From Nevskiaceae bacterium (lineage in GTDB: Bacteria; Pseudomonadota; Gammaproteobacteria; Nevskiales; Nevskiaceae), in NCBI GenBank assembly GCA_004297005.1, contig SCVA01000011.1:1-64000 (forward strand): a DNA stretch of 64,000 bases, read 5' to 3'. Shown in pieces: positions 11,985-38,276 of the stretch (positions are counted from its first letter, which is position 1; each line of letters begins with the position of its first letter). The notes below the pieces were generated by a model. That model worked only from the letters and a program-made list of their open reading frames with translations, did not search any database and had not been told where the DNA came from. A program made the position numbers and the translations under genes.

Positions 11985-11991
11985 CCCGCGG

Positions 11992-14312: not shown

Positions 14313-14720
14313 CTAGCGCTGAGCCGCCGCCGCCAGCGCGCGGATGCGTTCCACCATCGAGTAGAAGCCGTTGCGGCGATTGACGGTAATGTTGCTCTCC
14401 AGTCCCAGGCGCCGGAAGCTGCCGGCGATGTCCAGCGCCAGGATTTCCGCCGGCGTCTTGTCGTTGACCAGGGCCATCAGCAGCGCGATCAGGCCCTTCA
14501 CCAGGCTGGAGTCGGAATCGCCGTTGAAGCGCATGCGGCCATCGGCCTGCAGACCGCCCACCAGCCAGACCTGCGACATGCAGCCACGCACCTTGGTCTC
14601 CTCGTTGCGTTCGGTCTCCGCCAGCGCCGGCAGCTTGCGGCCGAGGTCGATGAGGTAGGAGTAGCGCTCCTCCCAGTCGCCCAGCAGCTCGAAGGTTTCC
14701 GCGAGTTCGTCGATGTCCAT
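14313..14720 (-). CDS. sufE: SufE family cysteine desulfuration protein
   Basis: 135 residues. SufE accepts sulfane sulfur from SufS/CsdA for Fe-S cluster assembly. The active-site Cys is in KVRGCMSQVWL (~47, standard position in RGCxSxxW). GDSDSSLVKGLIALLMAL and the C-terminal NRRNGFYSMVERI also match. The start at 14720 gives the expected MDIDEL... N-terminus. Only 6 bases separate the start from an array of five heptanucleotide repeats, leaving a weak GAG as the only ribosome-binding element. Divergent from rph. No sufS or other suf genes nearby. Confidence 0.92.
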   Translation of the reverse strand: MDIDELAETFELLGDWEERYSYLIDLGRKLPALAETERNEETKVRGCMSQVWLVGGLQADGRMRFNGDSDSSLVKGLIALLMALVNDKTPAEILALDIAGSFRRLGLESNITVNRRNGFYSMVERIRALAAAAQR

Positions 14721-17841: not shown

Positions 17842-19311
17842 TCAGCGCATCAGCTCCACGGTCAGCGGTTGGGCCAGGATCCACAGCCCGGCGACGGTGA
17901 ACGCCACCATCAGCAGCAGCATCGGTAACTGGCTGAGCAGCGCCAGCCGGCGACCGGGCCAGATTCGCAGCGCAATGCGGTGGGCGACGCAGACGCTCAG
18001 CACGTGGCCGAACAGGATCAGCCCCACCTGGGTATGCCAGACCGTGCCCATGGCCGGCAGGATCGGCGCGCGCAGCAGTTGCGCGCTGCCGAACAGGTTC
18101 CAGCCCCAGCCGAAGGGGTCGGAGCACAGGCTCACGATCTTCAGGCCCTGGGTAAGCAATAGGGTCGAGTAATGGGTGGCGTGGTAGACCAGCGCGATCG
18201 GCAGCAGGCTGTAGCCGAAGTCCAGCGCCAGTTCCCGAAGCGGTCGCGGGCTGCGGGTGAGTTGCTTGGCCAGCCAGAGACAGGCCAGGTAGGCCGCGAG
18301 GTAGAGAAAGGGCGAGATCAGCAGCCAGAACAGCTCCCAGCGGATGTACCAGGGGCGCAGCAGTTCCAGGGCGCTGATCGGTGGGCGGCCCACCAGCGCG
18401 GTGAGCCAGCCGGTGGTGTCGCGCCAGAACAGCCAGACCCACCACTGTGTCGCACGCAGTCCGTCGAAGGCGGTGGTGGACAGCATGGCCAGCGCGAAGG
18501 CGACCGTGCTCAGGCTGTTGGGGCGCTCGCGTAGCAGGCCGCTGAACGGCCTGCGCAGGCGCAACCGGCCGCGCCCGGCCGCAGTTTCGGCGGGGCGGTA
18601 GTCCAAAGGGGCCATCAGCGCGATCAGCCGCAGGAACACCGAGAACAGCTCGCAGTGCCGGAACCAGGCGCCGGCACCGACCAGCCAGACGCCGAACAGG
18701 TTGAGTGCGGAGTAGGCGAGAAGCATCTGGGCCAGCGAGGGCGGCTTGCTGTGACCGAACAGCTCTAGGCCGATGAAGACCAGGTAGAGAGCCAGCGCTG
18801 GCCAATCGCCCCAGGCCTCGCGGTAGCTCAGCCGTCCCTGCGCATAGCCGCTCCAGGCGCGCGACAGCAGTCCGGTGAGCACGCGCCAGGGATTGAGCGC
18901 GGCGTAGACGTTGCCGACCAGCGCGCTCAGATAGGTGCCGCCGAGCACGAACACGACCCAGAAGAAGGTCATGCTGAAATTGCGGTAGGGGTCGCGGTTG
19001 CCGGCGAGGCCGGTGGCGATGCACAGCAGCAGTAGGCCGAGGCTGAGTGCGGCCAGCAGTGGGCGGGCGCGATGCAGCCAGCGGCCCAGGGGCTGCCCGC
19101 CGAGATCGCGGTTGCCGCCTTCACGCGTCGCCGCCGGCGCGGTGGCGAAGTAGGCGGCCAGCAGGAAGGACAGCAGCAGCGCCGCCGACGCCGCCCAGGC
19201 ATAGAGCCAGAACGGCACCGGCAGGTTGTAGAGCCGGCCGAATCCGTGCGCGAGGGCCGGCAGCGGCGCCAGCAGGGTCGCCAAGCCCGCGAGCTGCCGC
19301 AGTGTCCTCAC
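17842..19311 (-). CDS. Large polytopic membrane protein, FedB-like (fenitrothion-hydrolase component family)
   Basis: 489 residues: cleavable signal (ends ALAHG) and about 12 membrane helices. The opening AHGFGRLYNLPVPFWLYAW, the NPWRVLTG loop and LCSDPFGWGWNLFG resemble proteins annotated as fenitrothion hydrolase / FedB; this match is from memory, not a search. True biochemical activity is doubtful because the family lacks a known hydrolase fold. Conserved His residues (YHATHYSTLL, WHTQVGLILFGH) suggest metal or heme handling. It lies 25 bases after the M19-like lipoprotein gene and is probably co-transcribed with it. Confidence 0.6.
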   Translation of the reverse strand: MRTLRQLAGLATLLAPLPALAHGFGRLYNLPVPFWLYAWAASAALLLSFLLAAYFATAPAATREGGNRDLGGQPLGRWLHRARPLLAALSLGLLLLCIATGLAGNRDPYRNFSMTFFWVVFVLGGTYLSALVGNVYAALNPWRVLTGLLSRAWSGYAQGRLSYREAWGDWPALALYLVFIGLELFGHSKPPSLAQMLLAYSALNLFGVWLVGAGAWFRHCELFSVFLRLIALMAPLDYRPAETAAGRGRLRLRRPFSGLLRERPNSLSTVAFALAMLSTTAFDGLRATQWWVWLFWRDTTGWLTALVGRPPISALELLRPWYIRWELFWLLISPFLYLAAYLACLWLAKQLTRSPRPLRELALDFGYSLLPIALVYHATHYSTLLLTQGLKIVSLCSDPFGWGWNLFGSAQLLRAPILPAMGTVWHTQVGLILFGHVLSVCVAHRIALRIWPGRRLALLSQLPMLLLMVAFTVAGLWILAQPLTVELMR

Positions 19312-19336
19312 GCCAGGGCCAGGTGGGTGATCGGGT

Positions 19337-21550
19337 TTACGGCGTCGGCAGCTTCTGCGCGTCGGCCGAGGCCTTCACGGTCTGTTCCCAGAGCTGCAGG
19401 AAGGCTTCCGCCGAGTTGTAGAGCGCGCTGGTGGTCTCCTCGCCGCCCTCGATGCGGGCTTCCTCCACGAAGTCGGCGACCAGGCCGTAGTTGGACATGC
19501 CCTCCTCGTCCATGCTCCAGGTCTTGCCGTCGGGGATCGACAACTGCTGGACGGTGAGCGGCTTGATGCCGGCGGCGGCGTACTGCGGACCCCAGCCCGG
19601 GCCCTGGAACAGGGTGAAGGGATAGTGCACCGGCTCGCTGCCGGCGCCTCGGGAGACGGCCAGATTGCGCAGGCCGTTGGCGTCGGCGCCATAGCCCACC
19701 GACAGCGGTCGCTTGGTCCCGGAGGCCTGCCAGATCGGCTTGACCTTCTGCACGAAGTCGGCGAACTCCTTGCCGTTGGGCAGGGCCGGATAAATGATGC
19801 CGCCCTGGCGGAAGATCTGCTCGGCCTGGGCATTGCTGATGCCGCCGTGGCCGCCGTGGCCGGAGATCATCGGGTAGGCCGGGGTGGTCAGCGCGCCCTG
19901 GTCGAGCATGTACTGCTTGCTCTTGATCTCGGCGTGGTCGATGTCGAGGATGAAGCCCTTCTTCATGATCTTGTCGATGGCGTACTTGCCGAGATCGGTC
20001 ACGGTGCGGGCATTGCACTGGCGGCCCGGCCCATAGATCGGCAGCACGCCGCCGGTGGTGGCGATCAGCAACTGGGTGACCGGGTCGTTGAACTGGGTGA
20101 GCGTGGCGGTTTCCAGCACCGCGCCGGCGTTATAGAAGTAGGTCGGGCCTTCGCCGCCGTTCTCGCAGGGGTAGGTCTTCCAGAAGCCCAGGGTGTTGGT
20201 GAAGCCGACGTAGTTCAGGATCGAGCTGAAGATGCCGGTGCCGCCCAGCGCGCTATCGACATCGTGGTAAGGGAACACCTGGCGCACGCCCAGATCCCAG
20301 ACCTCGTCGATCTCGCGGTCGATGTCCTCCTTGGTGCAGTCGCTGGTCTCGCCGATGCCGGGCAGGAACTGCACGCGGCAATGGAAGATGTTGGCGAACT
20401 CCAGGCCCGGAATCACCGCCAGCTTGCCGTCGCCGACCACCTGCCGCGCCTCGCTGGGATCCTTGACGATGCGGAACCAGCCCTTGCCGGGGCCGCCTTC
20501 CTGGGCGTCGACGTACTTCTCGATGTCGTAGAGGTACTCGACCTGGCGGGTGCCGACATCCATGTCGACGCAGGCCGCGGTCTTGTCGCCGAAGGTCAGC
20601 TTGGCGATGTTGCACAGTGCCTCGATGGTGGTGCCGTGCACGGTCATCGTGCGCAGGCCGGCCTTGTAGGCCCGCTCCACCCACTTGTAGTACATCTGCT
20701 GGTGCAACTGCGAGTCGTTCTTCGGCCAGTCGATGAAGGTCGGCCAGCCGACGGTGTCGTGGGTCTGGGTGGGATCGGCATCGAGGATGATGTTCTCGGC
20801 GCTGAGGATGCCCTCGGGGCCGTGCATGGCGATGCAGTTCTTGAGTGCCTCGGGCGCGCCGAAGCGGTCCACCGCGTGGCCGTACATCACGCCGCCGGCC
20901 GAGGGGCCGCGGTCGCCGCTGCCGTCGGACATGTCCGAGCCCATCGCCATGTGCGCGTGTACTTCGGCGAAACCCAGCACCGGTTTGCCGGGCGCCGGGC
21001 CGGTGAAGGTCGGGCCATCGATGCCGACCGGCATCTCCGGGTACTCGGTGCAGCCCTGCGCCGGCTCGAAGCTGAGCGTCGCCGGCGTCGTGCCCAGACC
21101 CAGCGTGCCGTCGGCGGTCACGATCAGGCTCTGGTCCAGCGTCGTCGCGGTATACCGCCCTTCGCTGCCGTCCAGGCTCCAGTCGGAGCCATCGGACGGA
21201 CTGGCCGCGGCGCTCACCGCCGACGGGCTGAAGGCCGAGCTGCCGCCGGTCATCAGTGTCTTGTCAGCGGTATAGAACAGATAGCGGCCCAGGCCGGCGG
21301 GCTTCATGTAGAAGCGCTCGGCGGCGCTGGCGTCCTGGCCGTTGGCGAGGAAACTGGAGCCGCTGCGCACCGCATATCGGCCATCGGCCTTCATCACGAA
21401 ACAGCGGTTGGCGAGGTCGTAGCGCGTCGCCACCGGGCCGTTGGGGACGACCGGCGGGCTGACCGCTGGCGGCTCCGACGAACTGCATCCGGCCAGGATG
21501 CCTGCCACCAGGAGCGAGCTCAGACGGACTTCGGGTGAAACTCGGCGCAC
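19337..21550 (-). CDS. Metallohydrolase lipoprotein (M19 dipeptidase / amidohydrolase-like), paralog A
   Basis: 737 residues. Lipoprotein signal with lipobox ILAGC. An N-terminal beta-rich region (~40-170, FVMKADGRYAVRSG, FYMKPAGLGRYLFYT) looks like a beta-trefoil. A TIM-barrel-like hydrolase region follows, with FAEVHAHMAM (HxH metal ligands), MTVHGTTIEALC, EEGGPGKGWFRIV-type loop (DAQEGGPGKGWFRIV), DIDHAEIKS and SGHGGHGGIS. This metal-ligand order resembles membrane dipeptidase/amidohydrolase folds. Substrate unknown. A full-length paralog lies at 28158-30350 on the opposite strand; the two bracket MltF and the phosphoesterase trio. Confidence 0.75.
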   Translation of the reverse strand: MRRVSPEVRLSSLLVAGILAGCSSSEPPAVSPPVVPNGPVATRYDLANRCFVMKADGRYAVRSGSSFLANGQDASAAERFYMKPAGLGRYLFYTADKTLMTGGSSAFSPSAVSAAASPSDGSDWSLDGSEGRYTATTLDQSLIVTADGTLGLGTTPATLSFEPAQGCTEYPEMPVGIDGPTFTGPAPGKPVLGFAEVHAHMAMGSDMSDGSGDRGPSAGGVMYGHAVDRFGAPEALKNCIAMHGPEGILSAENIILDADPTQTHDTVGWPTFIDWPKNDSQLHQQMYYKWVERAYKAGLRTMTVHGTTIEALCNIAKLTFGDKTAACVDMDVGTRQVEYLYDIEKYVDAQEGGPGKGWFRIVKDPSEARQVVGDGKLAVIPGLEFANIFHCRVQFLPGIGETSDCTKEDIDREIDEVWDLGVRQVFPYHDVDSALGGTGIFSSILNYVGFTNTLGFWKTYPCENGGEGPTYFYNAGAVLETATLTQFNDPVTQLLIATTGGVLPIYGPGRQCNARTVTDLGKYAIDKIMKKGFILDIDHAEIKSKQYMLDQGALTTPAYPMISGHGGHGGISNAQAEQIFRQGGIIYPALPNGKEFADFVQKVKPIWQASGTKRPLSVGYGADANGLRNLAVSRGAGSEPVHYPFTLFQGPGWGPQYAAAGIKPLTVQQLSIPDGKTWSMDEEGMSNYGLVADFVEEARIEGGEETTSALYNSAEAFLQLWEQTVKASADAQKLPTP

Positions 21551-21589
21551 GGGCTGTCCTCCCTGGACGTACTTGGTGAGCTGGACTGA

Positions 21590-21607
21590 CTGTCACCTTA
21601 CGGTAAC
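21590..21607 (+). promoter_or_regulatory. Weak PHO-box-like sequence
   Basis: CTGTCAC-CTTA-CGGTAAC resembles the PhoB box (two 7-mers close to CTGTCAT/C with a 4-bp spacer); the second half has two mismatches. It is 40 bases upstream of paralog A but oriented away from it, which weakens the case. Confidence 0.25.
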
Positions 21608-21707
21608 GAAAGGTCCAAACCGCGCGAAGTGGTGAAATTGGCTCTGCGCCCGTCCCCGTCGGCCCGTGACCGGTAGCGGGCTCGGAAAAGCCCGATGGCA
21701 AGCCCCC

Positions 21708-23288
21708 TCAGCTCGCCGGCACCGGCTCGGGCGCGGTGGCGGCCTCGGCAGGGCCCGTCGTCGGTGCTGGCTCTTCGGTGACGGCGCTGGCCGGGATGGA
21801 TTCGAGCGCGGGTGCTTCCAGGGGCTCCGGCAGCAACTCGTCCGAGGCCGGCAGCGCCTCGGCGACGCGTAGCTTCTGTTCCAGGCGCAATGGCGGCGGC
21901 GGCAGCACCGGTGCGCCGGAAGTGAGCCAACTGATGATGTCGTAGTAGGCGCGCACGTTGGTCACGAAGTCCACAGCCTCGCGGCCCCGCGTGTAGCCGT
22001 ACTTGGTCTGCTGATACCAACGCGGCCGCGACAGCAACGGGAAGACATCGCGGACGTCCAGCCAATGGGTGGAGTCGCCGCCGCGCTGGGAGGTCAGCTC
22101 GCGCGCGTCGAGCAGGTGCCCCAGGCCCTGGTTGTAGGCGGCCAGCGCCATCCAGCTACGGTCGGGTTCCGGCACCTCCTCGGGGATGCCGCGCAGGATG
22201 TCGGCCAGTACCCTTGCGCCGCCCTCGATGCTTTGCTCCGGGTCTTCGCGATTGGCGACCTTGTAGCGGCTGGCGGTGTCGTTGGTGAGCATCATCACTC
22301 CACGGACGCCGGTGCGGCTTTCGGCGCTGCTGTCCCAGTGCGACTCCTGGTAGCCGATGGCGGCGAGCAGCCGCCAGTCGAGGCCGTGACGGTCGGCCGA
22401 CTGCTCGAAATAGCCGCGCAGCCGCGGCAGACGACTGCGCATGTGGTTGGCTATCTGCACCGAGCTGAAGTAGTCCACCTCTTCCACGTGGCCGTAGTAG
22501 CGGTCGTGCAGGCGCGCCAGATTGCGGGGCGGCAGACGCGCGAGGTAATCCTGCGCGGCATCGTAGAGCGAGGTATCGCGGCCGGGCGCGAAGGCAAAGG
22601 CGATGTCCTCGGCGTTGCCGACATCGAAAGCCACCCGCAGGCGCGGGTAGTAGCGCTGGTTGATCGCCACCAGCGCCGAGCTGGCGATGGTGTAGTCCAA
22701 CTCGCCGCTGGCGACCTGGAACAGGAGATCCTCGGAGTCATAGGCGGTGGTCGCTTCCCACTTCAGTTGCGGAAAGCTGCGCGCCAGCGCCCGCAGCCGG
22801 GCGACGTGGTTACCGCCTTCGGAGACCAGCAGGCGGCCATTCAGCTCGCCCAGCGACTTCGGGCGCGGACTGCCGATGCGGTACACCAGTTGTGGCACCA
22901 CCTGATCGATGGGGGAGGAAAAGCGCGCCCGGTCGCGGCGCTCGGAATTGACCGTGAGTCCGGCCGCCGCCAGATGCGCGCGGCCCTCCAGCACTGCCTG
23001 CAGGGCGTCGGCCGGGCTGTTGCTGAAGCTGATCTGGGCACTCACCCCCAGACTCTTGGCCAGGCCCTGCGCCAGCTCGCATTCGTAGCCGATCAGGCCG
23101 TTGGGGCCGCTGTAGCAACTGGTGCGGCTGTAGGTGGAGGCAATCTTCAGCACGCCCTCCTCGCGGATCTTCTCCAGCAGCGGCGGGCGCAGATCCGAGC
23201 AGGTGGTCAGCGTCGCCAGCGCCACGCAGCCGTACAGCGCCGCGGGCAGGCGGCTACGCAGGCGGGAGCGGACGGATACGGCGGGCAT
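21708..23288 (-). CDS. mltF: Membrane-bound lytic murein transglycosylase F
   Basis: 526 residues from the ATG at 23288. It has a lipobox-like TLTTC (Cys30). A periplasmic solute-binding (SBP_bac_3-like) domain spans ~35-265 (EEGVLKIAS, GLIGYECELAQGLAKSLG, ISFSNSPADALQAVLEGRA). An SLT domain follows with the catalytic Glu in IGYQESHWD, then GVRGVMMLTNDTASRY and AAYNQGLGHLLDAR. MltF cleaves peptidoglycan glycan strands with 1,6-anhydromuramic products. The ~60-residue C-terminal tail is Pro/Glu/Ala-rich and unusual in length. A longer in-frame start would run antisense through the tRNA and is rejected. Confidence 0.93.
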   Translation of the reverse strand: MPAVSVRSRLRSRLPAALYGCVALATLTTCSDLRPPLLEKIREEGVLKIASTYSRTSCYSGPNGLIGYECELAQGLAKSLGVSAQISFSNSPADALQAVLEGRAHLAAAGLTVNSERRDRARFSSPIDQVVPQLVYRIGSPRPKSLGELNGRLLVSEGGNHVARLRALARSFPQLKWEATTAYDSEDLLFQVASGELDYTIASSALVAINQRYYPRLRVAFDVGNAEDIAFAFAPGRDTSLYDAAQDYLARLPPRNLARLHDRYYGHVEEVDYFSSVQIANHMRSRLPRLRGYFEQSADRHGLDWRLLAAIGYQESHWDSSAESRTGVRGVMMLTNDTASRYKVANREDPEQSIEGGARVLADILRGIPEEVPEPDRSWMALAAYNQGLGHLLDARELTSQRGGDSTHWLDVRDVFPLLSRPRWYQQTKYGYTRGREAVDFVTNVRAYYDIISWLTSGAPVLPPPPLRLEQKLRVAEALPASDELLPEPLEAPALESIPASAVTEEPAPTTGPAEAATAPEPVPAS

Positions 23289-23418
23289 GGTCGGGGTTCG
23301 CTGCTCTGGTTGAGGCGGGCGGCGGCGTGCAACTCCTCGGGTCGCCACCGTATCACAGCCACTTGGAACGTCTGGACGGTCGCCCTCGCCGACGGCTTCG
23401 GCTAAAATGCGCGCCACT

Positions 23419-23511
23419 GGACGGGTACCGAAGCGGTCATAACGGCGCTGACTCGAAATCAGATGGTGGGGGCGACCCTGCACGGGGGTTCGAATCCCTC
23501 CTCGTCCGCCA
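23419..23511 (+). tRNA. tRNA-Ser (anticodon CGA)
   Basis: 93 nt including the encoded CCA. Acceptor GGACGGG pairs with CTCGTCC, with G as discriminator. Anticodon stem CTGA/TCAG encloses a loop with CGA at 23454-23456, reading UCG. It has the long variable arm typical of serine tRNAs. T-stem GGGGG/CCCTC encloses TTCGAAT. TAAAAT at 23404-23409 is a plausible -10 element. Confidence 0.95.
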
Positions 23512-23521
23512 AGTCAAACAC

Positions 23522-23547
23522 AACGCCCTCGCAAGAGGGCGTTTTGC
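23522..23547 (+). terminator. Terminator after tRNA-Ser
   Basis: AACGCCCTC-GCAA-GAGGGCGTT hairpin followed by T-rich sequence, 10 bases after the tRNA end. It also lies just beyond the convergent GST stop. Confidence 0.8.
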
Positions 23548-23569
23548 TTTGTCCGGGGACTGAACTTGC

Positions 23570-24268
23570 TCAGCCCGGAATGCTCAATCCACGCTGCACC
23601 GCCGGCCGTGCCAGGAAGGCTTCCAGCACCCGCAGCACGTTCGGATAGTTCTGGATCTGCACCAGCTCGCCGGCGCCGTAGAAGCCGATCAGGTTGCGCA
23701 CCCAGGGGAAGCTGGCGATGTCGGCGATGCTGTAGTCCTTGCCGAGCAGCCAGTCGCGGCCATCGAGCTGCCGCTCCAGCACAGTCAGCAGCCGCTGGGA
23801 CTCGGCCACATAACGGTCGCGCGGGCGCTTGTCCTCGTAGTCCTTGCCGGCGAATTTATGGAAGAAGCCGAGCTGCCCGAACATCGGGCCGATGCCGCCC
23901 ATCTGGAACATCAGCCACTGGATCGCCTCGTAACGCTTGGCCGGGTCGGCGGGGAGGAAGGCGCCAGCCTTGTCGGCGAGGTAGAGCAGGATCGCGCCGG
24001 ACTCGAACAGCGCCAGCGGCTGCCCGCCCGGCCCCTGCGGGTCGAGAATGGCCGGGATTTTGTTGTTGGGATTGAGTGAGAGGAATTCCGGCGAGAGCTG
24101 GTCGTTGCTGGCGAAGTCGACCTTGTGCGCCTCGTAGGGCAGGCCGGTTTCCTCCAGCAGGATCGAGACCTTCACGCCATTGGGCGTGGGCAGCGAGTAG
24201 AGCTGGATGCGGTCCGGGTACAGGGCCGGCCACTTGCGGGTGATGGGGTAGGACGAGAGATCAGTCAT
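23570..24268 (-). CDS. Glutathione S-transferase family protein (nu-class, YghU/YfcG-like)
   Basis: 232 residues. The N-terminal thioredoxin-like domain carries LYSLPTPNGVKVSILLEETG, where the TxNGxK pattern replaces a catalytic Tyr or Ser and is typical of YfcG/YghU disulfide-bond oxidoreductases using two GSH. NPNNKIPAI and LFESGAILLYLADK are the GSH-binding segments. The all-alpha C-domain has SIADIASFPWVRN. Cytoplasmic. Stand-alone gene converging on the tRNA. Confidence 0.92.
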   Translation of the reverse strand: MTDLSSYPITRKWPALYPDRIQLYSLPTPNGVKVSILLEETGLPYEAHKVDFASNDQLSPEFLSLNPNNKIPAILDPQGPGGQPLALFESGAILLYLADKAGAFLPADPAKRYEAIQWLMFQMGGIGPMFGQLGFFHKFAGKDYEDKRPRDRYVAESQRLLTVLERQLDGRDWLLGKDYSIADIASFPWVRNLIGFYGAGELVQIQNYPNVLRVLEAFLARPAVQRGLSIPG

Positions 24269-24316
24269 GGCGGGAGCGCTTGCGGATGCGCACAGCTTGC
24301 CATGCGCAGGACTGCG

Positions 24317-25195
24317 CTAGCGCTGCAAGGGATCGTTGGCGAGCAGGAAGGCGCGCAGTCCGGGCAGGTCGTCGGTGTTGATGTGGTCCTGATCGGCGGT
24401 GATGAACTCGCGCCAGAGGTTGTCGCGAGCGCTGCCCGGCTCATCCGGCACGTTGTACAACCTCACGCGACGGCCGGCGGCATGTGCTCGGGAAATGCTG
24501 TCACGAAGCTTGGCCTGCTGGTCGGCGGGCATCGCACCATTGCCGTCCCAGCCGAACTCGGTGGTCCAGCTATCGCTGATCAGCGGCATGAAGCTGGCCG
24601 GCTCGCTGCTATCGAGATCGTCGAAACGGCCGTCGTAGAAGCAGTAACGGCTACCGGCGGCGAGCATGGCGTCCTTCGGCCGGTTGCCGGAGAGGATGGC
24701 GGTGACCGCACCGGGGATGACCACGCCGTTCTCGTAGCGGGTGAAGAGATCGCCGTACTTCGCCAGCTCCGCCTCGATCGCCTGCCAAGTGGACTCGGCG
24801 CTGGTCTTGGCGTCAATCAGCAGGCTGAAGGGCGCACAGTCGGGTTGGATGCAGCCGCCGTTGGCTTGCGCGCGCGCCTTCAGTGGCTCGAGGTAGAGCG
24901 CGGCCAAGGTACGGTCCAGGCGGATGTCCTGCGGATCGTGGGCGACATAGAGCCCGCCGAGGCCCAGCAGCGGCAGGGTGTAGACATCGGCCTCGACGCT
25001 GGCGAAGCCCTGCTCTAGGGCGTCCAGCAGCGGACGTTCGTGCTCGTAGTCGTTGTGCGCATGGGCGCGGCGCAGGGACTTCTCCGTCGCCGTCGGCGGC
25101 TCGGTCGGAGTCGGCAGCGCGTCCGGCGGCAGGCTTTCGGCGCAGGCCGCGAGCCACAAGGCCGCCAGCAGCGGCAGTCGGTGCCAACTAGGCAT
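24317..25195 (-). CDS. AIM6-like PI-PLC/GDPD-superfamily phosphodiesterase lipoprotein
   Basis: About 292 residues from the ATG at 25195, with lipobox LWLAAC. The opening AHAHNDYEHERPLLDALEQG followed by FASVEADVY and YVAHD is the signature of the PI-PLC-like phosphodiesterases grouped with yeast AIM6, which belong to the GDPD/PLC TIM-barrel superfamily. DAKTSAEST and RLYNVPDEP fit later strands. It probably hydrolyses phosphodiesters at the cell surface. The start overlaps the preceding phosphatase gene by 8 bases, so the genes are translationally coupled. Confidence 0.82.
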   Translation of the reverse strand: MPSWHRLPLLAALWLAACAESLPPDALPTPTEPPTATEKSLRRAHAHNDYEHERPLLDALEQGFASVEADVYTLPLLGLGGLYVAHDPQDIRLDRTLAALYLEPLKARAQANGGCIQPDCAPFSLLIDAKTSAESTWQAIEAELAKYGDLFTRYENGVVIPGAVTAILSGNRPKDAMLAAGSRYCFYDGRFDDLDSSEPASFMPLISDSWTTEFGWDGNGAMPADQQAKLRDSISRAHAAGRRVRLYNVPDEPGSARDNLWREFITADQDHINTDDLPGLRAFLLANDPLQR

Positions 25196-26675
25196 GATCG
25201 AGCGCGGCGCAGTGCGCACGCTTCAGGCGGTTGGCGACCTGGGTGCGTCGGGCCAGCAGATCAAAGTTGCCGTCGATGGGCCTGCCCAGTGCGGCGACCG
25301 AGCGCACCGGCTGCACCGCCTGGTTGGCGGCCAGCAGGCTGCGACGCGGGATGCTGAACGTATCCGCCACCGCGGTGGCGCCGCTGAGTGGATCGACCGC
25401 CCAGGTGGTGGCCTTGATCTCGCTGCGGCTCACCGTGTACTCGACGAACACATGCGTGTCTTGCAGCGCCGCCGCGCTCCAGCCGGACTGCGGCAGCAGC
25501 ACGTAGAAGCTCTTGCCGCCGGTGCCGGCGGTGACCTGGGTGTAGCCGAGCGGATTGGGCAGGCCGAAGCTCATTGGCTTGCTGCGCTGGTAGATGTGGT
25601 CGTGGCCCACCGCCAGCAGATCGACGCCGTAGCGCACGAAGATGTTTTCCTGCAGCAGCACCAGGGTGAAGTTGGCCGGGTTGCGACCCTCGTTGTCGGT
25701 CCAGAGGGTGAAGTGCTGGGAGACGATGATGAAGTCGATCTCGCCGGCCGCGCGGCGCAGCGCCGCCTGTGCGAGGTCGGCTTCCAGAAAGGCCAGCTCG
25801 CTCACCAGCGTGCCGTCGGTGGCGAAGCAGCCGCCGGTGGAAATCACGAAGTGGCAGCGGCCGAGATCGAAGCTGTAGAAGGTGCCGTCCGGGCTCTGCG
25901 TCGAGCTCGGGCAGGCGAAGCGGTTGCGGTAGGTCTGGCCGTTGTTGTCCTCTTCCTCGTGATTGCCGGGCGCGGTCATCAGGATGCCGCTGGCGGCGTA
26001 GTCGGCCTCGATGGCGTTCACATAGTCGTCCCACAGCGGCTGCTCGCCGTTGGCGTAGGAAATATCGCCGGCGAGCAGGGCGAAGTCCGGCTGCCGCGCG
26101 GCGACGGCGCGCAGCACCGCGCTGGAACTGGCGCCGATGCCGTGGTCGCCGAAGTGGCAGAAGCGGAACTCCTCGCCGGCCGGCGTCGGCCGCACCACCC
26201 GCACCGGGCTCCAGCCCTCCTCCGAGCCAACGCGATAGCGCATCGGCAGCGCCGGGTTGAGGCCGCTGGCGGTGGCCTTGTGGGTAAAGCTGGCGACGCC
26301 GGGCGTGGCGGTGGTGGCCGCTTCGGCGCGGCCGGGGAAGGGCGCGCCGGCGATCTCCGCCGCGCTCATGCCCTCGCTTACCGGGCCGAACTCGATATAG
26401 CTGCGCGGCGCGTCCTCGCCGTCGGTGAACCAGGTGGCAGTGCGGCTGCGCAGCGGGTCGCTGGTCCAGGACAGATGCCTGCCGCGCGGCGCGAACTTGG
26501 CGGCGGGCGGGGTGACCGGCGGCGTCACCGGTGGCTCCGGCGTGGTCGGCGGTGCGCCGCGCTCGCTGGCGCCGCAGCCGCCCAGCCAGGCCGGCAGCAG
26601 CAGTGCGCCGCCGCCATAGACACCGTGCTGCAGAAAGCGGCGGCGGCGCAGGTCGGGGGGTGGGGATTGGGTCAT
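25188..26675 (-). CDS. Tat-exported purple-acid-phosphatase-like metallophosphoesterase
   Basis: 495 residues. Twin-arginine leader RRRRFLQHGVYGGGALLLP, a possible lipid-anchor Cys, then a Pro/Thr linker. A fibronectin-like N-domain (WTSDPLRSRTATWF) precedes the two-metal phosphoesterase core: HFGDHGIG, AGDISYANG, APGNHEEED, SQHFTLW and VGHDHIYQRS supply the expected Asp, Asn and His ligands. It likely removes phosphate from organic esters outside the inner membrane. Sits between the GDPD gene (overlap ATGA) and the AIM6-like gene. Confidence 0.88.
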   Translation of the reverse strand: MTQSPPPDLRRRRFLQHGVYGGGALLLPAWLGGCGASERGAPPTTPEPPVTPPVTPPAAKFAPRGRHLSWTSDPLRSRTATWFTDGEDAPRSYIEFGPVSEGMSAAEIAGAPFPGRAEAATTATPGVASFTHKATASGLNPALPMRYRVGSEEGWSPVRVVRPTPAGEEFRFCHFGDHGIGASSSAVLRAVAARQPDFALLAGDISYANGEQPLWDDYVNAIEADYAASGILMTAPGNHEEEDNNGQTYRNRFACPSSTQSPDGTFYSFDLGRCHFVISTGGCFATDGTLVSELAFLEADLAQAALRRAAGEIDFIIVSQHFTLWTDNEGRNPANFTLVLLQENIFVRYGVDLLAVGHDHIYQRSKPMSFGLPNPLGYTQVTAGTGGKSFYVLLPQSGWSAAALQDTHVFVEYTVSRSEIKATTWAVDPLSGATAVADTFSIPRRSLLAANQAVQPVRSVAALGRPIDGNFDLLARRTQVANRLKRAHCAALDHA

Positions 26676-27904
26676 GGCAGGGTCCGGCGCCGCAACGCGG
26701 CGATGAGCAGGTAGAGCAGGCTGGCGAGCAGCGGCAGGCTGCCGCCTTCGGTGTGGGTTGGCGCGGCGGCCGGTGGCGGCGTGTCGAGCTGGTTGTATTG
26801 CGCCGCCTCGGCGCTGGCATCGCCGGCGAAGCGCACCACGTAGTCCTGTTCCGCGCCTGGCAGGCTGATGCAGCCGTAGCGGTTGCTGAGCGCCTCGCCC
26901 GGATCGCGGCCATCGCGTCGGCTGTAGCTCAGCGTCTTGCGCGGCAGGCCCAGGCCGTTTTCGGCGTTGCTGAGGCAGATGCTGTTGCTGCCGGCCCCGG
27001 CCGCGCTGCCCGGCGCCAGCTTCACCGCCAGCGGCGCCTTGAGCAGTGCGCGGATCACGTCGGGCTGATTGGACTGCGCGCCATCGGCGCCCATCGCCAG
27101 GCCGCGCAGAAATTCCGCCGCCTCGTATTCGTGGCCGTCGTCGTAGCTGTGCGGCAGCACGTAGGAGCAGCCGTCGTGGACGGCGGCGATCAGCTCCGGC
27201 GTGAACTTGTCCATCGCCGAGCCGTAGATGATCGAGCGGCCGGTTTCGTCGTAGGCGGTCTGCGCGTCGGGGTTGTCGTCGATGTTGTAGATCACCCGCA
27301 GCTCGGGGTAGAGCAGTTGCGACAGGCTGACGGTGAAACCGCTCATGTTGAAGTAGCTGCGCTGCATCAGGCCGTAGTCCTGCACCTTCTGGAAGAAGCC
27401 CAGGTAGTTCTTCACGAACTTGATGTCGAACTCGATGCCGCGCTGGCTGTCGCGGGCGAGCGCCAGGATGTCGTCCAGACGCGGCACCGGCGAGGGGTCG
27501 TACTCGCTGCCTATCCAGGGCTCGAAGTTGGCGGCGTTGAGCGCGTCGATCTGGCTGGAGAGCATCGTCGAGATATTGCCGCTGCCGCCGGTGGTGCGGG
27601 CAACGTCGTCGTCGTGCATGGAATAGAGCACGCCATCCAGCGATTCGCGCACGTCGATCTCGACAAAGTCCATGCCGTAGGCGAAAGCGTGGCGATAGGC
27701 CCAGAGCGTGTTCTCCGGCGCCAGGTTCACGCCGCCGCGGTGCGCCGAGATCAGCGGCGGCCGGCGGCCGATGTCGGGCGTGCCGGCGCTGGTCCAGCGC
27801 GCGGTTTCGGCGGTCTGCTCACAAGGGGCGTCGGCGCGGGGCAGATCGGCGGCCGGGCAGGGCAGGGCGCACAGGGCCAAAAGCAGGCAGAGCGGGCGGA
27901 GCAT
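26672..27904 (-). CDS. Glycerophosphodiester phosphodiesterase with GlyGly-CTERM-like tail
   Basis: 410 residues with a signal peptide (ends CPAAD). The GDPD domain (~50-330) has SAHRGGVNLAPENTLWAY (catalytic His and Glu region), DFVEIDVRESLDGVLYSMHDD and GIEFDIKF. It releases glycerol-3-phosphate from phospholipid head groups. The C-terminus is a Thr/Glu-Gly-Gly-Ser linker, one hydrophobic helix (LPLLASLLYLLIAAL) and RRR, matching the GlyGly-CTERM/rhombosortase sorting-signal layout. First gene of the coupled phosphoesterase trio, divergent from paralog B of the M19-like lipoproteins. Confidence 0.9.
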   Translation of the reverse strand: MLRPLCLLLALCALPCPAADLPRADAPCEQTAETARWTSAGTPDIGRRPPLISAHRGGVNLAPENTLWAYRHAFAYGMDFVEIDVRESLDGVLYSMHDDDVARTTGGSGNISTMLSSQIDALNAANFEPWIGSEYDPSPVPRLDDILALARDSQRGIEFDIKFVKNYLGFFQKVQDYGLMQRSYFNMSGFTVSLSQLLYPELRVIYNIDDNPDAQTAYDETGRSIIYGSAMDKFTPELIAAVHDGCSYVLPHSYDDGHEYEAAEFLRGLAMGADGAQSNQPDVIRALLKAPLAVKLAPGSAAGAGSNSICLSNAENGLGLPRKTLSYSRRDGRDPGEALSNRYGCISLPGAEQDYVVRFAGDASAEAAQYNQLDTPPPAAAPTHTEGGSLPLLASLLYLLIAALRRRTLP

Positions 27905-28157
27905 GGTGAGCGGTCAGGACAAAGCGCAATTCCCAAACCTACGGAATCGCGATGACGATCCGATGATGTCAGTTCGGGACGGAGGCTCAGCCGAGCGGTT
28001 CCCGAGATTCGACCCGAGGCGTCGGGCACCGACGAGCCGCGAGCAGCTACTTGTTACACAACGTCGCAAATCGCAGCGATTTTTACTATCGGATGACAAT
28101 TTGAAGTCAACCTAGCATCGGGCGACGGCCAAGGACGGGCCGTCCTCTGGGAGAACG
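27905..28157. promoter_or_regulatory. Divergent intergenic control region with two palindromes
   Basis: 253-bp gap between gdpd (leftward) and metallohydrolase paralog B (rightward), AT-richer than its flanks. It holds AAATCGC-A-GCGATTT (28068-28082) and GACGGCC-N7-GGCCGTC (28124-28144), the latter 13 bases before the paralog B start. TACTAT at 28084-28089 could be a -10 box. No ORF with a credible start is seen. Confidence 0.45.
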
Positions 28158-30350
28158 ATGATGCGTGAACAGGGACCGTTGTCGGCCTGGCTCTGGCTTG
28201 GTGCAGTGCTGCTGCTGGCGGCTTGCGGCTCGTCGGATGAGTCGCTGTCGCCGACGCCACCGTCTCCGGTCCCCAAGACCCGCTACGACATGGCCAACGG
28301 CTGCTACGCCCTGCAGGCCGTGGCGAACGCCGGCTATGCCCTGCGCGAAGAGTCCGGGGCCTATTCCTGCGCGGCCGGTGACGCCGCCGAGGCCACGCGG
28401 TTCTTCATGAAGCCCACCGCGCTCGGCAAGTATCTGTTCTACGCCGAGGACCGCAGCATGCTGGCGCTGGCAGGTGGCGGCACCGAGGTCGGTAGCGTCC
28501 TCGCTCCCGGGGCGGCCGCGGACTGGACCGTCGATCTCGACCCGGATGGCGACTACAGCGTCTATTCGGAGTCGGCCGGCCGCTATCTGGCCTTGAACGA
28601 CGCCGACGGCCGGCTGGTGCTGGCGACCGAACCGGGCAAGTTCCAGTTCGTGCCCACTGAGGGCTGCATGGCCTTTCCCGAGATTTCCGTCGATGCCGAG
28701 GGCGAACCGTTCAAGGGTCGCGGCGTCGAGCAGCCGGTGCTGGGCTTCGCCGAGGTGCATGCCCATATCAGCGCCACCAGCTTCCTGGGCGGCGCGCATT
28801 ACGGAACGCCCTTCCACAAGTACGGAGTCACCGAGGCGATGGGCAATTGCCGGGTCCAGCACGGCCCGGCCGGCATACTCGACCTGATCGGCAACCTCTA
28901 TGGCGGCAACCCCCTGGCCACGCACGACACTCAGGGATGGCCGACCTTCGTCGACTGGCCGGCGCGCGACTCCCTGCTGCACGAGGGCATGTACTACAAG
29001 TGGGTGGAGCGCGCCTACCTCGCCGGCATGCGCCTGATGGTGAACGACTTGGTCGAGAATCAGGTGCTGTGCAGCCTGCAATCGGTGATCAACACCGCCA
29101 ACGCGCTCAATATCGATGTCGCCGAGATCCTGCGGGGTGTGGTCGATCTGGTGGTCCCGCCCTACTGCAACGAGATGAACAGCGCCATCGGCCAGATCAG
29201 CTTCATGCACGAGTTGCAGGACTACATCGACGCCCAGGAAGGCGGCCCGGGCAAGGGCTGGTTCCGCATAGTCACCACGCCGAGAGAGGCCCGGCAGGTG
29301 ATCAACGATGGCAAGCTGGCCGTGGTGTTGGGCATCGAGATTTCGCACCTGTTCAACTGCCGGGTGATGCAGCCGGGCGGCCTGTTCGAGGTGGCGGCCT
29401 GTGACGAGGCGCAGATCGACGCCGAGATGGACCGACTCTACGAGCTGGGAGTCCGGCAGATGTTTCCGATTCACGAGTTCGACAATGCCTTCGGCGGCAA
29501 CGGCATCTTCGATGGCCTGATCCTCAATGTCGGCAACTTCCTCGACACTGGCAGCTTCTGGCAGACCTATACCTGTCCGGATCAGCCCTACTTCTTCCAG
29601 GCCGGCGCCGAAATGACCACCGCGCTGCTGCCGGCACCGCTGGATCCGCTCACCGAACTGCTCACCCAGATCACTCAGGGCCTGGTGCCACTGTATCCCC
29701 AGGGCCACCAGTGCAACGCCCGCTGGATGACGCCGCTGGGCCGCTACGCCTTTGACCGGATGATGGACAAGAAGATCATGATTGAGGTCGATCACCTGGA
29801 ACTGGAAATGAAGACCCAGTTGCTCGACATGGCCGGGTCCAGGACCCCGGCCTATCCCTTGCTGTCCACCCACGGTGGTCAGGGTGGCATCAGCATGGAG
29901 CAGGCCAGGCGCCTACTCGCCGGGGGCGGTCTGCTCTATCCCAACAAGGGCAACGGCATTCAGTTCACCGAGCAGCTGAACCTTCTGCGCAGTGTGGCTA
30001 GCGAAGGCAAACTGTTCGCCATGGGCTATGGCGCCGACATGAACGGCCTCGCCAACCAGTCGGCGCCGCGCGGCGCGGCGGCGGAACCGGTGCGCTATCC
30101 CTACACCCTGTTCCGGGGCCCCGGCTGGGGTGCGCAGTTCGCGGCGGTACAGCCCATCGTCTTCCAGCAGTCGGCGGTTCCGGAAGGGGATCGGCTGTTC
30201 GACATCAATGCCGAGGGCCTGGCGCACTACGGCCTGATCGCGGATTGGATCGAGGAGGTGCGTCTGGAGGGCGGCGAGCAGGCGATCACTGATCTCTACA
30301 ACTCCGCCGAGCTCTACCTGCAGACCTGGGAACGCACGCTCAACCGATGA
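28158..30350 (+). CDS. Metallohydrolase lipoprotein (M19 dipeptidase / amidohydrolase-like), paralog B
   Basis: 730 residues, lipobox LLLAAC, with GGGAG upstream of a double ATG. It is collinear with paralog A: beta-rich N-domain (ANGCYALQAVANAGYALREE, RFFMKPTALGKYLFYAED), then FAEVHAHISA, DAQEGGPGKGWFRIV, a diverged EVDHLELEMK, STHGGQGGIS and GYGADMNGL. Overall roughly half of aligned positions look identical by eye. Substrate unknown. Likely exposed at the envelope and co-transcribed with the downstream GH31 gene, although a large inverted repeat lies between them. Confidence 0.75.
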   Translation: MMREQGPLSAWLWLGAVLLLAACGSSDESLSPTPPSPVPKTRYDMANGCYALQAVANAGYALREESGAYSCAAGDAAEATRFFMKPTALGKYLFYAEDRSMLALAGGGTEVGSVLAPGAAADWTVDLDPDGDYSVYSESAGRYLALNDADGRLVLATEPGKFQFVPTEGCMAFPEISVDAEGEPFKGRGVEQPVLGFAEVHAHISATSFLGGAHYGTPFHKYGVTEAMGNCRVQHGPAGILDLIGNLYGGNPLATHDTQGWPTFVDWPARDSLLHEGMYYKWVERAYLAGMRLMVNDLVENQVLCSLQSVINTANALNIDVAEILRGVVDLVVPPYCNEMNSAIGQISFMHELQDYIDAQEGGPGKGWFRIVTTPREARQVINDGKLAVVLGIEISHLFNCRVMQPGGLFEVAACDEAQIDAEMDRLYELGVRQMFPIHEFDNAFGGNGIFDGLILNVGNFLDTGSFWQTYTCPDQPYFFQAGAEMTTALLPAPLDPLTELLTQITQGLVPLYPQGHQCNARWMTPLGRYAFDRMMDKKIMIEVDHLELEMKTQLLDMAGSRTPAYPLLSTHGGQGGISMEQARRLLAGGGLLYPNKGNGIQFTEQLNLLRSVASEGKLFAMGYGADMNGLANQSAPRGAAAEPVRYPYTLFRGPGWGAQFAAVQPIVFQQSAVPEGDRLFDINAEGLAHYGLIADWIEEVRLEGGEQAITDLYNSAELYLQTWERTLNR

Positions 30351-30380
30351 GGCCGGGTGCGGTCCTGCCGGCTGGCGCTG

Positions 30381-30413
30381 CTGTCAATCGACCGCAACCT
30401 GCGGTCGTTACAG
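30381..30413. promoter_or_regulatory. Inverted repeat between paralog B and the GH31 gene
   Basis: CGACCGC-AACCT-GCGGTCG core (30389-30407), extended by outer CTGT (30381-30384) and ACAG (30410-30413). No T-tract follows, so it looks more like an operator or RNA structure than a simple terminator. Confidence 0.4.
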
Positions 30414-30440
30414 TGCGCGATCCTGATTCTCGCCCGCCCC

Positions 30441-32900
30441 ATGTCGAGCCCGTCGTCGTCCCGCCGAGTGCGGCTGTCCTGCCCCTTTCTGTCGCTGCTT
30501 CTGCTCGTGGCCTGCGGCCCGCGCGCGATGACACCAGCGACCGAGCCGGAACCGCCGGAGCCCGCGCAGCACTATCGGCTGGAACTGGAACTGCAGGGCC
30601 AAGGGCGCGTGGTCTCGCAGCCGCCCGGCCTGGATTGCCCCGGCCGCTGCGATCTGGAGCTGCCCGCCGGCAGTTCCCTGAGCCTGAGCGCAACCCCTGC
30701 CCACGAGTTCTCCTTCGCCGGTTTTGGTGGCGACTGCCAGGGCGAGAGCTGCACGCTGCGCATGGATCGCGACCGACAAGTGCAGGCGCGCTTCGAGGCC
30801 CTGCCGCCGGCGCTGGTGCTGAATGAGACCGACAGCGAGCTGAGCGCCAGCGATCCGCTCACGGGCGCGGTGTTCGTCATCGCCAGGCAGACCGGCCACT
30901 ACCGCATCCAGCGCGGCGAGCGGGTGCTGGAGTCGGTCGGCAGCGGTCTGGCCCTGCCGCTGAATCTCGACTACTACGGTTGCAACGATGTGCAGGACGG
31001 CATCGACCGCTGCTATCCGGGCCTGGTCGATGTCAGCTACCAGCCGCTGGCCTATCGCAGGGCCGCCGGGTGGCAGGCGGCGAGCGGCGCCAGCCTGCGC
31101 GAGGCCGGTCGCCGCGAGCTTTGGTTGGATCTCGCGACCAGCGACGGCGCCGGCGCCGAGTTGCGCGTCGGCTTTGCCGAGGACGGCGCCCTGGAGCTCG
31201 ACTACCGACCCAAGGCCACGGACGTGCAAGCGGTGGCCGATGCCTGGGCGGCCGGCACCAGCACCGGCTACTACGGCGCCGGTCAGCGATTCGGTCGGTT
31301 CAATCTGCGCGGCTTGTCGGTGCCCTTGTGGATCAGCCACGGCCTGGGCTCGGACCGCTCGCTGCTCTCCACCAACGAGGTTGCCGCGCCGTTCTTCTGG
31401 AGCAGCGCCGGCTGGGGGTTGTGGAGCGCGCAGGACGAGCGCGGCGAGTTCAACTTCGCCAATCCCCTGGAACGCGCCGACGCGGTGCAGGTGATGCGCG
31501 AGGCGGCGACGCTGCATCACGTCTTCTATCTCGGCACGCCGCAGGAAATCCTGACTGCGCACACGGCGCGCGCCGGTCGCCCGCAATGGCGGCCAGCGGC
31601 GTGGATGTGGCGGCCGATGATCTGGCAGGACGAGGACACCAGCAGCGAGTCGGTGCAGGCGCTGATCGAGGGCATGGCCAGCCGCGACATTCCGCTGGGC
31701 GCGGTCTGGCTCGACAACCCCTGGGACGCCGGGCGCGCCAGCTTCGAGTTTTCCTCCGAGCGCTTCCCCGACCCGGCGGCGCTGATCGCGGCGGTACACG
31801 CGGCCGGCGTGAAGCTGATGGTCTGGCTCTCGCCCTATGTCGGTGGCGCGGCCGAGACCTACGCCCGCGAACGCGGCTGGGTGGTCAGCGGCACCCGCGA
31901 GGATGGCAACGATGCCACCTATTTCCCGTCGCGCGGCATCGACCCGGCGCTGGACTTCACCCATCCCGAAGCCTTCGCCTGGTGGCGCGATGGTCTGCGC
32001 GGACTGATCGCGCGCGGCGTTGATGGCGTCAAGCTCGACCGTTGCGAAGAAGATCTTTCCGACACCTCGGTCTGGGCCAACGGCCTGCCCAACCGCGCCA
32101 ACCACAATCCCTATTGCGTGCTCTACCAGCGCGCTGCCTGGGAGGCCTTCGCGGCCGAGCAGCCGGCGAACGCCGAGGGGGTGAGCGACTACGCCCTGCT
32201 GGCGCGCGGCGGCTGGACCGGCTCGGCGCGCTACACCGGCCATTGGGCGGCGGACAATCTGAGCCTGCCGGGTCTGCTCGGCCTGGGCCAGGCGCTCAAC
32301 TCGCTGCTGTCGCTCTCCGCCAGCGGCTTCCCTTGGAACGGCGCCGACATCGGCGGCTATGTCGGCCTGCGCCAGGACCTGGGCGAGGGCGCCGCCGGCA
32401 ATCCGCTGCTGCTGCCCACCCCCAATCTCTACATCCGCTGGACGCAGCTGGGCGCGCTCTCGCCGGTGATGCAGAGCGCCATCCCGCCCTGGTGGGTGTC
32501 GGAGGCGGCCATCGACAACTATCGCCGCTACGCCACGCTGCACGACCGGCTGGCGCCGCTCACCGCCGAGCTGGCGCGGCTGAGTATTGAGCAGGGCATC
32601 CCCATCGTGCGGCCCATGGCCTATGCCTACCCGGACGACGCGCTGGCGCGCGCCGCCGAAGATCAATATCTCTACGGCCCTGATCTGCTGGTGGCGCCGA
32701 TCACCGGTGAGCTGGTCGATCTCGGCCTCGCCATCCGCACGGTCTACCTGCCGGCGGGCCGCTGGCGGCACTTCTGGAACGGCATCGAGTTTGACGGTCC
32801 GCGCGTGGTGCCGGTGGTGGCGGCACTGGACGAGCTGCCGCTGTTCGTGCGCGTCGGCGCCAGTCTGCCGCCGGGTGTGTCGGCCGCCGAGCTGCCCTGA
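30441..32900 (+). CDS. Glycoside hydrolase family 31 lipoprotein with N-terminal InlB-type repeat domain
   Basis: 819 residues from the ATG at 30441, lipobox LLLVAC. Residues ~45-120 form a disulfide-rich repeat (GQGRVVSQPPGLDCPGRC, FAGFGGDCQGESC) like the divergent InlB B-repeat in surface proteins. The GH31 catalytic barrel follows: MIWQDEDTSSESVQALIEGM, IPLGAVWLDNPWD, the nucleophile Asp in GVDGVKLDRCEED, the acid/base region ARYTGHWAADN and FPWNGADIGGY. GH31 members are alpha-glucosidases, xylosidases, sulfoquinovosidases and relatives; the substrate is not clear. Its place amid phosphatases suggests action on a glycolipid or glycan. Confidence 0.88.
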   Translation: MSSPSSSRRVRLSCPFLSLLLLVACGPRAMTPATEPEPPEPAQHYRLELELQGQGRVVSQPPGLDCPGRCDLELPAGSSLSLSATPAHEFSFAGFGGDCQGESCTLRMDRDRQVQARFEALPPALVLNETDSELSASDPLTGAVFVIARQTGHYRIQRGERVLESVGSGLALPLNLDYYGCNDVQDGIDRCYPGLVDVSYQPLAYRRAAGWQAASGASLREAGRRELWLDLATSDGAGAELRVGFAEDGALELDYRPKATDVQAVADAWAAGTSTGYYGAGQRFGRFNLRGLSVPLWISHGLGSDRSLLSTNEVAAPFFWSSAGWGLWSAQDERGEFNFANPLERADAVQVMREAATLHHVFYLGTPQEILTAHTARAGRPQWRPAAWMWRPMIWQDEDTSSESVQALIEGMASRDIPLGAVWLDNPWDAGRASFEFSSERFPDPAALIAAVHAAGVKLMVWLSPYVGGAAETYARERGWVVSGTREDGNDATYFPSRGIDPALDFTHPEAFAWWRDGLRGLIARGVDGVKLDRCEEDLSDTSVWANGLPNRANHNPYCVLYQRAAWEAFAAEQPANAEGVSDYALLARGGWTGSARYTGHWAADNLSLPGLLGLGQALNSLLSLSASGFPWNGADIGGYVGLRQDLGEGAAGNPLLLPTPNLYIRWTQLGALSPVMQSAIPPWWVSEAAIDNYRRYATLHDRLAPLTAELARLSIEQGIPIVRPMAYAYPDDALARAAEDQYLYGPDLLVAPITGELVDLGLAIRTVYLPAGRWRHFWNGIEFDGPRVVPVVAALDELPLFVRVGASLPPGVSAAELP

Positions 32901-32930
32901 GCTTTCTGTTGTTTTGAATCGGAGATTGTC

Positions 32931-34283: not shown

Positions 34284-34331
34284 GCGCGGCCCGCACTGCG
34301 CTTTCTAGGGCCGCCCCAGCGATCGCGCAAC

Positions 34332-34356
34332 AAAAAGGCCCGGGACGCCCCGGGCC
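34332..34356 (-). terminator. Terminator of the SdiA-regulated-like lipoprotein gene
   Basis: GGCCCGGG-ACGC-CCCGGGCC hairpin (34337-34356) with an A-run on its left, which reads as a U-tract for leftward transcripts. It lies between two convergent genes. Confidence 0.75.
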
Positions 34357-34376
34357 CGAGGTGCTGCGGCCTGGAC

Positions 34377-37118: not shown

Positions 37119-37218
37119 CGGCGGATTCCTGAAGAGGGTCGGGAATCCCGATCATTCCGGAGCGATGTTTCAGGCCGGTTAATGGACGCCTGGCCTAAGG
37201 GCCTGTCACCGCCCTGCT

Positions 37219-38178: not shown

Positions 38179-38276
38179 GGCTGGGTGTGGAACGGGGAGG
38201 GAATCCCCAATCCACGCAGCCTAGCGACGGCAGTTTACGAAGCCGTGATGGTCGGCTCAGGTCGAGCGCGGGCCGC

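Follow-up and report, generated by a model that had tools for sequence, protein, structure and literature searches.

Within a 64,000-nucleotide stretch of a Nevskiaceae bacterium genome (GenBank assembly GCA_004297005.1, contig SCVA01000011.1, positions 1 to 64,000; hereafter the window), three overlapping genes on the minus strand encode a set of predicted phosphoesterases. Read in their own direction, they specify a glycerophosphodiester phosphodiesterase (GDPD, 410 aa, 26672–27904), a purple acid phosphatase-like protein (PAP-like, 495 aa, 25188–26675) and an AIM6-like lipoprotein (292 aa, 24317–25195). The name AIM6-like is a label taken from an initial annotation of this DNA, and no AIM6 family model was returned by the searches made here. 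The gene coordinates and both overlaps given in that annotation are exact. GDPD and PAP share an ATGA stop-start overlap of 4 bases (26672–26675, minus strand), and PAP has 8 bases in common with AIM6 (ATGCCTAG, 25188–25195, minus strand) when AIM6 starts with the ATG at 25195; the alternative GTG at 25219 would extend the overlap to 32 bases. Gene overlap by itself is not rare in this region, because 3 of 18 codirectional pairs in a hand-made list around the locus overlap, two of them being the pairs just described. Both overlaps recur in sister species. In the following, G numbers denote genomes (G000, the window genome of 3.57 Mb; G001 to G004, the same genus; G011, G034 and G048, relatives within its family) and L numbers individual loci. 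The ATGA overlap is identical in G000, G003 and G004, and the 8-base overlap is kept at equal length in G000, G002, G003 and G004, with a different stop codon in G002, while PAP identity falls to 63% across these congeners. On this evidence, conservation of the overlaps among sister species exceeds what chance would give.

The GDPD protein matches PF03009 with 77.2 bits (cut-off 23.6), the alignment covering model positions 1–112 of 244, and its catalytic set is intact (H55, R56, E82, D84, H97, D160 and K162), the first five residues being invariant across the 7 aligned rows. An AlphaFold2 model built from these rows (predicted local distance difference test, pLDDT, 82) consists of a TIM barrel, a beta-rich part at about residues 294–370 and a terminal helix; its best Foldseek match is the GDPD 1zcc (E 7e-18, TMt 0.86). 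The small beta-rich stretch behind the barrel corresponds to about 26795–27025 of the window. GDPD matches number three in the whole window genome. At the N-terminus the protein carries a signal for the general secretory (Sec) pathway and at the C-terminus a GlyGly-CTERM-like sorting tail (26675–26746, minus strand) of the pattern GG-hydrophobic-Arg. Scanned alone against TIGR03501, this tail scores 18.4 and 16.5 bits (cut-off 15.5), and those of G003 and G004 score 16.2 and 18.1 bits; the G067 tail passed no model in the same scan. The window genome encodes a rhombosortase (123.2 bits, cut-off 84; 0 of 14 control genomes pass) and GspD (558.7 bits, cut-off 351), the sole component of the type II secretion system (T2SS) that was searched. 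Hence the C-terminal anchor of GDPD is probably a processed GlyGly-CTERM sorting signal.

The second protein passes the cut-offs of the N-terminal domain model PF16656 (38.5 bits, cut-off 30) and the metallophosphatase model PF00149 (42.2 bits, cut-off 21.5), and its best PDB relatives are purple acid phosphatases (best E 9e-19). D177, D204, Y207, N238, H321, H358 and H360 are invariant in 15 of 15 rows and correspond to the seven metal ligands of purple acid phosphatases. Its N-terminus combines the twin-arginine motif RRRFLQ with a lipobox cysteine, Cys34, that is conserved in at least 90% of the 15 rows, and the PAP-like protein therefore reads as a lipoprotein of the twin-arginine translocation (Tat) pathway, not merely as a Tat substrate. 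The AIM6-like protein has a Sec lipobox (A17-C18) that is invariant in 13 of 13 rows, by which it classes as a Sec lipoprotein. Signal peptides and lipoboxes were assigned by eye, without a predictor. The initial annotation had distributed the three products over three export modes, namely Sec with a C-terminal anchor, Tat, and lipoprotein. Its Sec-exported GDPD and its AIM6-like lipoprotein stand; the PAP-like protein is to be moved to the Tat lipoproteins and the GDPD anchor looks more like a sorting tail. All three products are thus predicted to be anchored in the envelope.

What the AIM6-like protein does is less apparent from sequence comparison. No PDB sequence homologue was found at E <= 1 and a PHROGs search gave no match. 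The AlphaFold2 model was built from 13 rows (pLDDT 86.6; predicted template modelling score, pTM, 0.83), and its top Foldseek match is the GDPD 1vd6 (E 8e-6). Structural comparison with VIA placed the phosphatidylinositol-specific phospholipase C (PI-PLC) 5fyp first (Z 16.9, root-mean-square deviation 3.3 A, 218 aligned residues), while 3h4w reached Z 16.4 and numerous GDPDs lay at Z of about 14–16; phospholipase D (PLD)-type enzymes were also matched. All 13 aligned rows share H45, H47, E68, D70, H86, D128 and K130. With the PI-PLC/GDPD superfamily (5fyp, 3h4w, 1vd6) the AIM6-like protein has in common the TIM barrel and a set of two His, Glu and Asp, but it forms a family of its own without a sequence relative in the PDB. 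Because its predicted fold resembles PI-PLC and GDPD, we regard it as a second predicted phosphodiesterase of this superfamily. One Amycolatopsis relative reaches 39.1 bits against the Pfam model GDPD_2.

Relatives of the AIM6-like protein are encoded in at least 571 stretches of the genome collection, and of the 80 top-ranking loci from named genomes 70 belong to Actinomycetota. Among 146 relatives searched at E 0.001, AIM6 occurs in 14 (decayed in one), PAP-type proteins in 36 and GDPD-type proteins in 114; a sample of 369 genomes of the class gave strong AIM6 matches in G000 and G060 alone, plus two weak ones. A GDPD lies within 5 kb of AIM6 at 8 of 13 AIM6 loci of the order Nevskiales (the window, L078, L083, L084 and L087–L090; the full set comprises the window, L078, L079 and L081–L090). 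At the 80 named-genome loci, similarity to the window proteins identified few neighbours (GDPD 4, a relative of the lipoprotein at 37219–38178 1, GH31 2). With a GDPD profile built here, GDPD was detected at 8 of them (L165, L166, L167, L177, L203, L206, L222 and L231) and not in the flanking DNA examined, which was short in some stretches, at the other 72; for the actinobacterial loci the counts are 6 of 70 with GDPD and, within the same limit, 64 of 70 without. In two Amycolatopsis genomes GDPD lies directly upstream of AIM6. Moreover, the two domains occur in single proteins, as AIM6::GDPD in Sinimarinibacterium (L166, which shares its genome with L084) and as GDPD::AIM6 in three Kribbella genomes and Nocardioides ungokensis. 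In these five fusions PF03009 recognises the GDPD part, and PF13653 passes its cut-off on the AIM6 part, although it may also score on the GDPD part. In a tree of 56 of 89 rows, the 13 Nevskiales rows cluster together with support values of 100/99, and the fusions from Actinomycetota fall in the other part. The opposite domain orders together with this placement point to at least two separate fusions of AIM6 and GDPD. This repeated linkage of the AIM6-like family to GDPD is, as far as sequences tell, the least expected result of this study. It is tempting to speculate that the AIM6-like protein provides GDPD with a partnering second active site, as a PI-PLC-like diesterase acting in tandem on the same phospholipid-derived substrates, so closely that in Gammaproteobacteria and Actinomycetota the two were joined into one protein on at least two occasions, with opposite domain orders, and that in Nevskiaceae PhoB controls the pair, which is presented at the envelope together with PAP and PhoX; we hold this only tentatively and consider it somewhat less probable than its negation.

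Regulation of the three genes by phosphate is suggested by the region upstream of GDPD. PhoB is present in the window genome (348.5 bits, cut-off 296.2) and over cut-off in 88 of 100 relatives. A Pho-box matrix was trained on 58 phoB and pstS upstream regions of relatives, with two loci of the own genus held out, and yielded the motif CTGTCAY-NNNN-CTGTCAT with about 57 expected sites. A candidate array of three half-sites at 11-bp spacing lies at 28082–28110 (minus strand; array score 12.4, p=0.002 from Markov shuffles of the 253-bp upstream region), and its boxes rank third and fourth among the 127,966 box positions of the window. A further Pho-box-like site on the GDPD strand (27952–27969, minus strand, 7.8 bits) is weak alone. 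Three-half-site arrays are found upstream of the operon in all four congeners that carry it (G000, G003, G004 and G002; p values 0.002, 0.002, 0.005 and 0.001). Of 17 regions tested, 9 had an array at p <= 0.01; besides these four, arrays precede the window gene 19337–21550 and AIM6 in G034, G011, G064 and G070 (p 0.001–0.008 for the AIM6 regions), the latter two being close relatives, and the region in G067 (L089) holds a single Pho box only (p 0.001). A sigma-70 pattern was not found in 23500–28300, which is uninformative for a PhoB promoter.

A PhoX-family phosphatase gene (32931–34283, plus strand; PF05787, 110 bits, cut-off 24) lies nearby, and in G002, G003 and G004 a PhoX gene flanks GDPD or PAP in divergent orientation. 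The order in G003 is glutathione S-transferase (GST), AIM6, PAP, GDPD, divergent PhoX (81% identity over 386 aa), an SdiA-regulated/Big_5 lipoprotein and the 37219-like lipoprotein. In G004 it is 37219-like, divergent PhoX, GDPD, PAP, AIM6 and GST, with AIM6 (L080, about 11655–12064) decayed into three fragments and GDPD and PAP intact. G002 has 37219-like, divergent PhoX, PAP, AIM6 and a second PhoX, and GDPD is absent from this locus. No AIM6 or PAP match was found in G001, which is 87% complete. Outside the genus, PAP and AIM6 relatives are not neighbours in any of the eight genomes having both (8/8), lying on other contigs or megabases apart. In G064 (L087, family f4), AIM6, GDPD, a different PAP of 781 aa, a GDPD::37219-like fusion and PhoX are found inside 8 kb; another PAP stands beside AIM6 in both G064 and G070, and in G067 (L089, also f4) the GDPD::37219-like gene overlaps AIM6 by ATGA. 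Since PAP and AIM6 are scattered, yet the same set is clustered anew in family f4, function rather than gene order is conserved among these relatives. The fixed-ratio synthesis that the initial annotation had read from the overlaps is unsupported, because in relatives the modules are dispersed, missing or paired differently: PAP and AIM6 go without GDPD in G002, AIM6 is decayed in G004, and PAP and AIM6 are apart outside the genus.

In many soils and waters growth is limited by organic phosphate, a large share of which derives from phospholipids. We consider it likely that the three genes form a PhoB-controlled operon that scavenges phosphate from organic phosphate esters by stepwise release. 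The present data directly show how the genes are arranged, that their active sites and linkage are conserved, which folds are predicted and that a Pho-box motif is present. Under phosphate starvation, PhoB would bind the array of 11-bp repeats and drive one transcript through the overlapping genes; the overlaps would favour co-expression without setting a fixed ratio. GDPD would be exported by Sec, cleaved by rhombosortase and brought to the outer surface by type II secretion, with the PAP-like lipoprotein exported by Tat and the AIM6-like lipoprotein by Sec. GDPD would hydrolyse glycerophosphodiesters (those of choline, GPC, of ethanolamine, GPE, of inositol, GPI, and similar) to glycerol-3-phosphate (G3P), the AIM6-like protein, as a second metal-dependent phosphodiesterase, might cut a related headgroup diester, and PAP together with PhoX could remove phosphate from the monoesters to supply inorganic phosphate (Pi) for uptake. 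The earlier proposal of stepwise release by a phosphodiesterase plus a phosphatase thus gains from the intact catalytic residues, the predicted folds, the Pho boxes, the nearby PhoX and a Pseudomonas precedent; the set itself has to be amended to two predicted diesterases and one phosphatase. In Pseudomonas, secreted GlpQ is needed for growth on GPC and makes G3P, from which PhoBR-dependent secreted phosphatases including PhoX free Pi (PMC5438359). Common to both is a secreted GDPD followed by PhoBR-dependent phosphatases outside the cell. However, no diesterase/phosphatase operon is mentioned in the available part of that report (PMC5438359), whereas the genes of GDPD, the PAP lipoprotein and the AIM6-like protein overlap here in one row. 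PUS clusters of Flavobacterium, which respond to low phosphate, likewise combine phosphodiesterases, phosphomonoesterases and lipoproteins, but are reported to carry SusCD-type or TonB-dependent outer-membrane transporters (PMC8115612); none was present among the neighbours scanned at the present locus. For Vibrio cholerae VesB, a GlyGly-CTERM/rhombosortase/T2SS route to the surface with a glycerophosphoethanolamine-containing modification is reported (PMC6219818). The GG-hydrophobic-Arg tail, rhombosortase and GspD are common to the window genome, but the cargo here is a GDPD, whose processing is predicted from its tail sequence. Thus the strategy is known; the operon make-up and the AIM6-GDPD pairing look new, and a search of the open-licence literature found neither of them, nor an earlier functional proposal for AIM6-like proteins. 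The locus defines a specific group of enzymes open to testing, and gene context suggests a function for a secreted family that is otherwise uncharacterised.

Several results weigh against the scavenging operon or parts of it. The window AIM6-like protein scores 20.9 bits against GDPD_2, under the cut-off of 27, and comparison of the AIM6 and GDPD profiles by hhalign gave no match (probability 3%); in this alignment of low probability, E68-x-D70 is aligned to E82-x-D84 and D128-x-K130 to D160-x-K162. The GlyGly-CTERM was missing from the full-length GDPD search and from a six-frame genome search, and in G003 two MYXO-CTERM models accept the tail as well. No array at p <= 0.01 precedes AIM6 or the leader gene in G059 (0.044), G069 (0.084), G048, G030, G060 and G067, nor was one found upstream in Kribbella and Amycolatopsis. 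The window holds four Pho-box-like sites of at least 10 bits, and 20 whole-window shuffles gave 0 to 8, so that the Pho-box case rests on position and recurrence. In addition, the AIM6-like protein might act not on diesters of phospholipid headgroups but on another diester, such as a glycan-linked or cyclic phosphate, or be non-catalytic and merely ride along. This is doubtful, though the most probable of the alternatives: the family lacks a PDB homologue, its structural matches span PI-PLC, GDPD and PLD-type enzymes, most actinobacterial loci have no GDPD nearby, and AIM6 alone has decayed in G004, but its His, Glu, Asp, His and Asp-x-Lys residues are invariant and it has been fused to GDPD in two orders.

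The genes could also serve the bacterium's own envelope, by turning over or remodelling phospholipids that are its own or serve as anchors, such as the glycerophosphoethanolamine-containing one on rhombosortase substrates, instead of foraging. The enzymes are anchored, GDPD substrates resemble the anchor described for VesB (PMC6219818), and marine bacteria are reported to remodel their lipids under phosphorus deficiency (PMC4796936). Such a role appears improbable: PAP and PhoX in the set would complete the release of Pi, and the AIM6::GDPD fusion lipoprotein (L084) pairs the domains without a GlyGly-CTERM tail, while a Pho box is compatible with envelope and foraging functions alike. Accidental packing of independent genes without joint function could draw on the overlaps elsewhere around the locus and on the ease with which ATGA arises. 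Against this stand the overlaps kept in sister species, the renewed clustering of the set in a second family, there with a different PAP, and the domain fusions, so that we give packing hardly any credence.

Further genes accompany the scavenging operon. A GST gene (23570–24268, minus strand; PF02798, 54 bits) begins 48 bp downstream of AIM6 and follows the cassette in G003 and G004 too; it may be on the same transcript, and its functional relation to the cassette is not obvious. The SdiA-regulated/Big_5 lipoprotein (34377–37118, minus strand; PF06977, 108.7 bits) adjoins the cassette in G003 as well, with 81% identity over 723 aa. The lipoprotein at 37219–38178 (minus strand; PF13449, 13.2 bits, below the cut-off of 27.6) has relatives fused to a GDPD domain (PF03009) beside AIM6 (L087 14072–15823 and L089 7224–9227), which suggests that it is also part of organophosphate use. 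At Rfam gathering scores, a tRNA was the sole match in 19000–38500. G000 alone among the four cassette-bearing congeners has M19-like and GH31 genes (28158–32900) between GDPD and PhoX. The former encodes a divergent lipoprotein, weakly similar to peptidase M19 (28158–30350, plus strand; PF01244, 13.8 bits, below the cut-off of 26), which shares the Pho-box region with GDPD. M19-like upstream regions had Pho boxes at p < 0.05 in 5 of 18 cases (one more locus was dropped for a too short upstream), compared with 4 of 53 window genes, among them GDPD, its M19-like neighbour and the other M19-like gene. The M19-like flanking genes were not counted as cassette members, because such genes are multi-copy, with four strong members in the window genome, and lie mostly elsewhere in the genomes. 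The best Pho-box match of the window (21590–21607, 17.2 bits, array p 0.001) precedes the gene of the second M19-like lipoprotein (19337–21550), and the second-best is found at 14380–14397 (13.1 bits).

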